9,492 nt of DNA from positions 1-9,492 of the forward strand of contig JAFGFO010000453.1 in assembly GCA_016931085.1 (NCBI GenBank), given 5' to 3'. The position numbers were made by a program, and so were the translations under genes. This document shows positions 2,597 through 2,914 of the stretch, piece after piece. The notes under the pieces are model-generated. The model saw nothing but the letters and a program-made list of their open reading frames with translations. It made no database searches and had not been told where the DNA came from. The stretch comes from Thermoflexales bacterium. GTDB lineage: Bacteria > Chloroflexota > Anaerolineae > Fen-1058. Numbering within the stretch: the stretch's first letter is position 1; each line of letters begins with the position of its first letter.

Positions 2597-2914
2597 TTAC
2601 ATTTTGAGGTCTTGGAAATACAGCCAGAAGCGCCCCCACCCCTGGACGGCAAACAACAGCTTTTCTGTGCCTGGCTCCAGGCTGTCAAAAATGTCCTTCG
2701 CCAGGTAGATCTCGATCTCGCCGTCCTGGAAGCGGACGTACTCTTCGGGCTGCTCCGGTTTGCCCATCAGACCTGATGGGCCTTTGTAGGCCATTCATCA
2801 GCCGGCAACGACCAGCCGGGTGGCGATGTGCAGCACGCTGTCCCACTGTTTCAGGTATTCGCGCAGCCAGCCCGAGTTGAGATGGGCTATAGGGATCGGA
2901 CTCGCTTCTTGCAT
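2597..2914 (-). CDS. Putative Sec-Sec selenoprotein of the CC/Se-motif (HesB-like) family
   Basis: Read from the ATG at 2914 through two consecutive in-frame UGA codons (2798-2800 and 2795-2797), this gives one 105-residue protein. Residues 1-38 include a helix (GWLREYLKQW), a beta strand (VLHIATRLVVAG), then U39-U40. Residues 41-105 continue with MAYKGPSGLMGKPEQPEEY, a dGxxIYlxkdI strand and a closing hydrophobic strand (LLFAVQGWGRFWLYF). This layout matches small CC/Se-motif proteins, where a Cys-Cys or Cys/Sec pair follows G and is followed by GKP-x2-PE-x-Y. Neither part makes sense alone: the first ends abruptly after the strand, and the second lacks any SD. A SECIS-like hairpin starts 13 bases after the second UGA. 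The ATG lies 8 bases after the thioredoxin stop, and acr3 follows by 14 bases. The function is unknown; a selenol pair for binding or reducing arsenic or another metalloid is inference. The alternative is two fragments of a decayed CC gene. Confidence 0.75.
2762..2781 (-). promoter_or_regulatory. Bacterial SECIS element
   Basis: On the coding strand GCCCAUC pairs perfectly with GAUGGGC, closed by A/U around the loop, giving CAGGUCUG at the apex. The loop AGGUCU, with its GGU, is identical to the SelB-binding apical loop of the E. coli fdhF SECIS as I recall it. The guanosine of the loop lies about 22 bases after the second UGA and 25 after the first, inside the range of known bacterial SECIS elements. 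The element lies wholly within the coding region and is translated as part of GPSGLMGK. A smaller overlapping GGCC/GGCC hairpin (2779-2792) could compete with it. The bulged U of the E. coli stem is not present here. Confidence 0.8.

Follow-up and report, generated by a model that had tools for sequence, protein, structure and literature searches.

The decoding of even one UGA codon as selenocysteine (Sec) is slow and leaky, and in eukaryotes the SECIS element sits in the 3′UTR. For prokaryotes, Table 1 of a 2026 review comprises 119 families and subfamilies, and an adjacent Sec pair is absent from it (PMC13188914). Three of its entries—MbdU (CU), NF041115 (UxxU), and TsoB (UxxxxU)—are bacterial proteins that likewise contain two Sec residues each, but none of the motifs as listed has them adjacent (PMC13188914). 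NF041239 (NCBIfam Moor_selen_rel, CC/Se motif) is tabulated there with a single Sec in the motif CxxU. The rules for bacterial SECIS (bSECIS) elements given in the same source comprise a loop of 3–9 nt, a stem of 4–16 bp, a G in loop positions 1–2, a distance of 16–37 nt from the UGA, and an MFE of −7.5 or lower (PMC13188914). Two consecutive Sec residues have been described in an alga, in a PDI_e selenoprotein whose GUGUU motif is stated to be the first case of this kind (PMC7539508). Among the open-licence papers listed by literature searches, no bacterial Sec-Sec protein came up.

Here, we describe a gene in a 9,492-nt stretch of DNA from a Thermoflexales bacterium (referred to as the window), in which two UGA codons follow each other directly in frame. 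As proposed from its sequence, this gene belongs to a clade of NF041239 bearing Sec-Sec at the site occupied by Cys-Cys or Cys-Sec in other members. Whereas one Sec is tabulated for the family (PMC13188914, Table 1), both positions are putative Sec in the 26 genuine loci described below. The features of the window that bear on the argument are collected in Table 1.

Table 1. Position and support of the features surrounding the UGA pair in the window
Feature	Position	Strand	Support
TauE/SafE-family permease	259..1050	minus	PF01925, 123 bits; further downstream
acr3, arsenite efflux transporter	1494..2582	minus	TIGR00832, 464 bits (cut-off 282.8); ATG at 2582-2580; next gene downstream
Sec-Sec selenoprotein gene (putative)	2597..2914	minus	105 codons, TAA stop at 2597-2599; translation with TGA=U, NF041239 match, homologous loci
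bSECIS-like hairpin	2762..2781	minus	8-bp stem, GGUC loop 21 nt after second UGA; −14.0 kcal/mol (22-nt hairpin); pairing conserved in relatives
Adjacent in-frame UGA-UGA, codons 39 and 40	2795..2800	minus	translation; pair in 26 of 27 class-wide matches
MTH895/ArsE-family thioredoxin-like protein, GSGCPNC	2923..3174	minus	TIGR00412, 86.9 bits (cut-off 62); PF13192; next gene upstream
ArsR/SmtB-family regulator (longest ORF)	3451..3861	minus	NF033788, 89.5 bits (cut-off 55)

The UGA pair in the window and in its relatives

The original prediction of two side-by-side in-frame UGAs dividing a 105-codon frame is confirmed at codons 39 and 40 on the minus strand. Outside this pair, the translation is devoid of Cys. 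Under the standard code, the frame running from 2914 to 2597 yields one ORF of 64 and another of 65 amino acids, and the anticipated breakage of the gene in automatic annotation is apparent from its database relatives as well. Three protein searches returned 10, 94, and 94 hits, or 161 distinct proteins when the ORF of the window itself is counted; upon alignment to the family profile, 160 of them begin behind the UGA pair and represent the back half of the protein. Since gene callers cut the protein in this manner, the family is hard to spot in annotation. Cys-Cys occurs in none of the 161, and only P0083, a protein of 94 aa, extends across the site; it has Trp-Trp there, which is what a gene caller translating UGA as Trp would yield. 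Several more distant database proteins of about 60 aa (P0079–P0095; MAYEEPSGLMGKPEN...) start directly behind the site. Because these proteins begin there and P0083 reads Trp-Trp, the Sec-Sec form may extend past the loci seen in this analysis.

At the level of genomic DNA, a pattern scan of contigs matched 26 stretches, seven of which were confirmed as relatives by tblastn; all seven reside in Chloroflexota assemblies and all carry an in-frame TGA-TGA at the corresponding position. A profile constructed from these seven loci and the window, with Cys in place of both UGAs, was used to search 396 genomes from the Chloroflexota class to which genome G001 belongs. It returned 27 matches in 26 genomes, and the adjacent TGA pair is found in 26 of them, including the first seven loci: 25 are full-length, and one (L040) ends at a contig edge three codons past the pair. 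The remaining match (L041, E 9e-4) was judged spurious, as it contains no similar frame. Forms with Cys, Trp, TAA, TAG, or a single TGA at the site are absent from the 26 genuine loci. Neither viral contigs (two scans and tblastn) nor plasmids (tblastn) contained relatives. Judged from these sequences, both UGAs are very probably decoded as Sec.

Sequence variation points to protein constraint on either side of the pair, as in one continuous coding frame. The pN/pS set consisted of 25 full-length sequences, the window included and L042 excluded, giving 300 sequence pairs; 33 of these were close enough before the UGA pair, none of them containing the window. Over these 33, the 26 codons that precede the UGA pair show a pN/pS of 0.30 and the 24 that follow it one of 0.39; in both parts, variation is highest at third codon positions. 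L040 was left out of the hairpin and constraint counts, and L042 likewise, the latter being given as an exception. This locus (L042 / L079) is a second UU copy in genome G004 that lacks the PSGLMG segment and whose frame continues stop-free into an Acr3 homologue, possibly constituting a selenoprotein-transporter fusion or a decayed copy.

Family, neighbouring genes, and possible function

The initial assignment to the CC/Se-motif family fits the profile data. L001 reaches 41.1 bits against NF041239 (cut-off 40) with Sec written as Cys, and 32.9 bits in a genome scan with stops read through; the window protein, at 29.6 bits (E 5.4e-7), stays below the cut-off. At E ≤ 0.1, NF041239 matches each of the 16 proteins in alignment A4, and a scan of 400 genomes of the phylum with this model gave none over the cut-off. 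Homologues with CC, CU, UC, or UU at the site had been sought, and UU (this clade), CU (L089), and CC (L087, L088) were found, the Sec pair aligning with the columns of Cys-Cys in L087 and L088 and of Cys-Sec in L089. These CC and CU members are distant, as the UU-clade profile found no match in the three genomes that hold them. L089, a single-UGA (Cys-UGA) member of NF041239 from the same phylum, has a weakly stable GGUC hairpin behind its UGA; the protein also matches TIGR00049 weakly (E 0.028).

The six best Foldseek hits of the predicted structure are chains of IscA, SufA, DsrR, and AQ_1857. On the basis of this model, the protein probably adopts a beta fold like that of HesB/IscA, in which a loop between two strands bears the Sec pair. 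Profile comparison with Escherichia coli IscA aligned a short stretch at non-significant values (E 0.07 and 0.39), the family profile, when searched against PDB sequences, hit nothing but an unrelated entry at E 1.4, and TIGR01911 (HesB-like selenoprotein, UxGP) is not among the matches of alignment A4.

The location of the gene between a CPNC thioredoxin and acr3 proved correct, with the thioredoxin upstream and acr3 downstream. The thioredoxin gene, for which the start at 3174 was chosen from an ORF that is open in frame to 3318, ends 8 nt upstream of the UU gene, and acr3 begins 14 nt behind the TAA of the latter with an AAGGAG site. All four genes—arsR, thioredoxin, UU gene, and acr3—run in the same direction. 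The Acr3 of the window is 83–87% identical to stretches adjoining the UU loci L023 and L039, which makes it probable that its host belongs to the same group.

Other parts of the window contain further genes. A small minus-strand ORF at 1430-1150 with a GACCPKGDD start seems to be continued in another frame (ending near NKGPSEWPDNPVGIARN), as if frameshifted; it has no Pfam match at E ≤ 1, and in L023, a stretch with 37.5% similarity to it closely precedes the UU gene. On the plus strand, the region 4169-9393 encodes CopD-like (PF05425), BON-domain, sulfatase-modifying-factor-like (PF03781), and UbiA prenyltransferase (PF01040) proteins. A 271-aa protein in the same orientation (5208-6023) is without a Pfam match, and a 488-aa protein (6026-7492, plus strand) has a sub-threshold Pfam match only.

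The arsenic-resistance setting that had been predicted for the window recurs among the relatives. By tblastn, relatives of the window's ArsR were detected in 16 of the 26 loci, of its thioredoxin in 13, of its Acr3 in seven, and of an ArsP_1 permease in 12. At least one of these four arsenic-linked genes is present in 20 of the 26 loci and in none of 20 control stretches centred on selA in the same genomes, controls that represent one kind of locus and comprise 250,580 bases compared to 283,661 at the loci. L084, L082, and L085 supplied the queries for ArsP_1, radical SAM, and FeS, respectively, and therefore match themselves; the ArsR and thioredoxin of the window suffice as queries to reach all 20 loci. 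In an ORF clustering, members of the ArsR, ArsP_1, thioredoxin, Acr3, and radical SAM clusters are located on the strand of the UU gene. Six of the 26 loci lack all four arsenic-linked genes, two of them on contigs shorter than 4 kb, and relatives of the radical SAM protein (11 of 26) and of an FeS-domain protein (15 of 26, source loci counted in both cases) are comparably frequent. Arsenic may therefore not be the substrate everywhere. The radical SAM/SPASM protein is near a family of tungsten-cofactor oxidoreductase maturases (364 bits, cut-off 380), and its gene (L082, 9667-10878) lies beside the UU gene there and in eight other loci.

Going by this gene neighbourhood, metalloid handling of some kind appears moderately likely. 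Its proposed course starts with the diselenol, which would bind trivalent arsenic or a related soft metalloid. The bound metalloid would be passed to, or prepared for, the adjoining efflux permease of the Acr3 or ArsP type, and the adjoining CPNC thioredoxin would keep the Sec pair reduced. For the metallochaperone ArsD, Cys12, Cys13, and Cys18 have been reported as essential for As(III) chaperone function (PMC4562236, citing Lin, Yang and Rosen 2007). This requirement, together with the frequent occurrence of arsenic families among the neighbours, leads us to favour a diselenol trap with hand-over; the odds of binding and hand-over rather than reduction are about even.

Its main rival is a redox enzyme, an alternative we regard as less likely. 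Here, a diselenol/diselenide cycle would reduce arsenate, a pentavalent organoarsenical, or another oxyanion, the MTH895-type thioredoxin would recharge the Sec pair, and the trivalent product would go to the permease. Such a thioredoxin is indeed encoded immediately upstream of the UU gene in the window and is found in 13 of the 26 loci as compared to none of the 20 controls. Moreover, many selenoproteins resemble thiol oxidoreductases, and most of the uncharacterised ones are considered likely redox proteins (PMC13188914). A separate resolving Cys is missing, however, since the window protein has no Cys outside the pair, and the data at hand do not tell a reductase from a binder.

The hairpin and the reading of the UGA pair

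The nearby SECIS on which SelB-dependent decoding was said to depend has a candidate in every full-length gene but one: a hairpin within the published bSECIS rules lies behind the UGA pair in 25 of the 26, the window included. Its consensus is CCCAUC[A/C] GGU[C/U] [U/G]GAUGGG or a near variant thereof, with a stem of six to eight pairs. In these 25 genes, the loop reads GGUC (23 genes) or GGUU (two genes) and starts 21 nt after the second UGA, at a distance of 24 nt from the first, and the energy of the 22-nt hairpin ranges from −9.9 to −16.4 kcal/mol. The usual hairpin is absent from L042, the second copy in G004.

Across 23 distinct sequences, 99.4% of the hairpin cells are paired, compared to 31–52% in slid structures. 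The pair closing the loop is C-G in 13 and A-U in 10 of them. At 0.255, as opposed to 0.147 in shuffles, the covariation score is reached by none of 500 shuffles; the numbers of cells paired and of cells changed on both sides likewise exceed 500 of 500 shuffles. The other two of the five measures, pairs with two-sided change (one) and further pair types (four), are not above the shuffles. Covariation events are few because the A-U/C-G exchange requires only about two changes on the protein tree, possibly one. RNAalifold predicts the same seven hairpin pairs unaided.

As a free RNA, the 54-mer of the window that starts at the first UGA prefers another fold, and a 31-mer without the upstream UGA part folds into the hairpin (z −3.5). 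A ribosome positioned on the UGAs would cover the RNA part involved in the alternative fold of the 54-mer. An Rfam search of the window at E ≤ 5 identified nothing at the UGA site and five sub-threshold matches elsewhere.

Components required for Sec insertion are encoded, in most cases, in the 25 relatives' genomes that carry the pair. A selA match at E ≤ 1e-162 is present in 24 of these 25 genomes, at least 21 of them over the cut-off; the match in G395 reaches only E 7e-6. As selA is over the cut-off in 315 of the 396 genomes of the class, this association is weak and does not discriminate by itself. ARAGORN assigned a tRNA-Sec with the anticodon TCA in at least 18 of the 25 genomes (at least three of seven and at least 15 of 18), and in seven others the best Rfam tRNA hits, among the matches listed, are Ser or Leu tRNAs according to ARAGORN. 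In the seven genomes checked for the first loci, selB is over the cut-off in six; in the seventh, G002, a 572-aa frame is matched in two pieces that remain below it. Only hits over the cut-off were counted for selB, since weak matches also occur in all 14 control genomes, two of them over the cut-off. Finally, selD is over the cut-off in six of the seven genomes, G002 again falling below, and each of these six genes has an in-frame TGA of its own. The occurrence of a Sec-containing selD implies that UGA is indeed decoded as Sec in these organisms.

In the mechanism we propose, both UGAs would be decoded as Sec by SelB and tRNA-Sec under the control of one hairpin located just behind them. When the ribosome arrives at UGA 39, hairpin-bound SelB would bring Sec; after a shift by one codon, SelB would act again.

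Most known bacterial SECIS elements serve a single UGA, which lends some weight to another scheme in which SelB supplies Sec at one of the two UGAs, probably the second, and a near-cognate Trp or Cys tRNA reads the other. None of the tests made here separates the two codons. If Trp or Cys were tolerated, however, TGG, TGC, or TGT would be expected somewhere in the clade, and these codons are found in none of the 26 genuine loci; both UGAs, moreover, lie within 16–37 nt of the hairpin loop. We consider this scheme very improbable. Less probable still are two coupled ordinary genes, the first stopping at the UGA and the second restarting behind it. In the window, an ATG does follow the second UGA directly, and gene callers use such starts. 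Among the 26 full-length genes, however, a start codon is located right after the pair in only three (ATG in the window and L025, GTG in L037, TTG in none), so that restart cannot account for the second half; the other 23 have no ATG, GTG, or TTG next. The two halves also share one frame without a spacer, the structure model has a strand on either side of the pair within one domain, the NF041239 profile spans the junction, and neither UGA is replaced by UAA or UAG in any of the 26 genuine loci.

A changed genetic code in which UGA stands for an ordinary amino acid throughout the genome, to which the Trp-Trp of P0083 would correspond as the product of a caller using such a code, can be dismissed, being already contradicted for the window: acr3, thioredoxin, and arsR terminate at TGA, which makes UGA a normal stop in the host of the window, 18 of the 26 frames with the UGA pair themselves close at TGA (in L042, this is the stop of the joined acr3 frame), and selA, selB, and selD are found in relatives.

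Comparison with known selenoproteins and arsenic chaperones

Taken as a whole, the account of a Sec-Sec clade of NF041239 that is decoded under one hairpin, hands a metalloid from its diselenol to a permease, and employs the thioredoxin as reductant appears probable to us. Somewhat more tentatively, and with slightly less than even confidence, we suggest that a strictly conserved Sec-Sec site decoded with one SECIS forms a dedicated As(III) diselenol trap feeding Acr3 or ArsP; it would then be the first Sec-Sec protein from a bacterium and the first genetically encoded vicinal diselenol in metalloid detoxification.

Two UGAs in succession raise the question of how SelB reloads on one hairpin after the ribosome has moved by a single codon, and double Sec decoding becomes directly testable with a conserved protein of only about 100 residues and its many natural variants. 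A vicinal diselenol is a very unusual site in a protein, and its tie to arsenic genes provides a concrete function to test.

A-type Fe-S carriers (IscA, SufA, ErpA) have C-terminal CxC ligands. The window protein differs from them in lacking a C-terminal Cys pair, or indeed any Cys. It further differs from HesB/IscA/SufA proteins and from the HesB-like selenoprotein in that one Cys or Sec is found there, whereas a putative Sec-Sec is found here. Within NF041239, the UU pair falls in the columns of the Cys-Cys or Cys-Sec site. With the algal PDI_e selenoprotein, the UU protein would share the consecutive Sec pair; PDI_e is, however, a eukaryotic protein disulfide isomerase said to be without a bacterial homologue (PMC7539508), whereas the present gene is bacterial and has a single hairpin behind the codons. 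The ArsD metallochaperone, likewise a small protein encoded in an arsenic operon, offers a functional analogy. The two are likened by function and not by sequence homology: in place of the ArsD cysteines, the UU protein would employ two Sec residues, without a third thiol, and its gene lies next to acr3.
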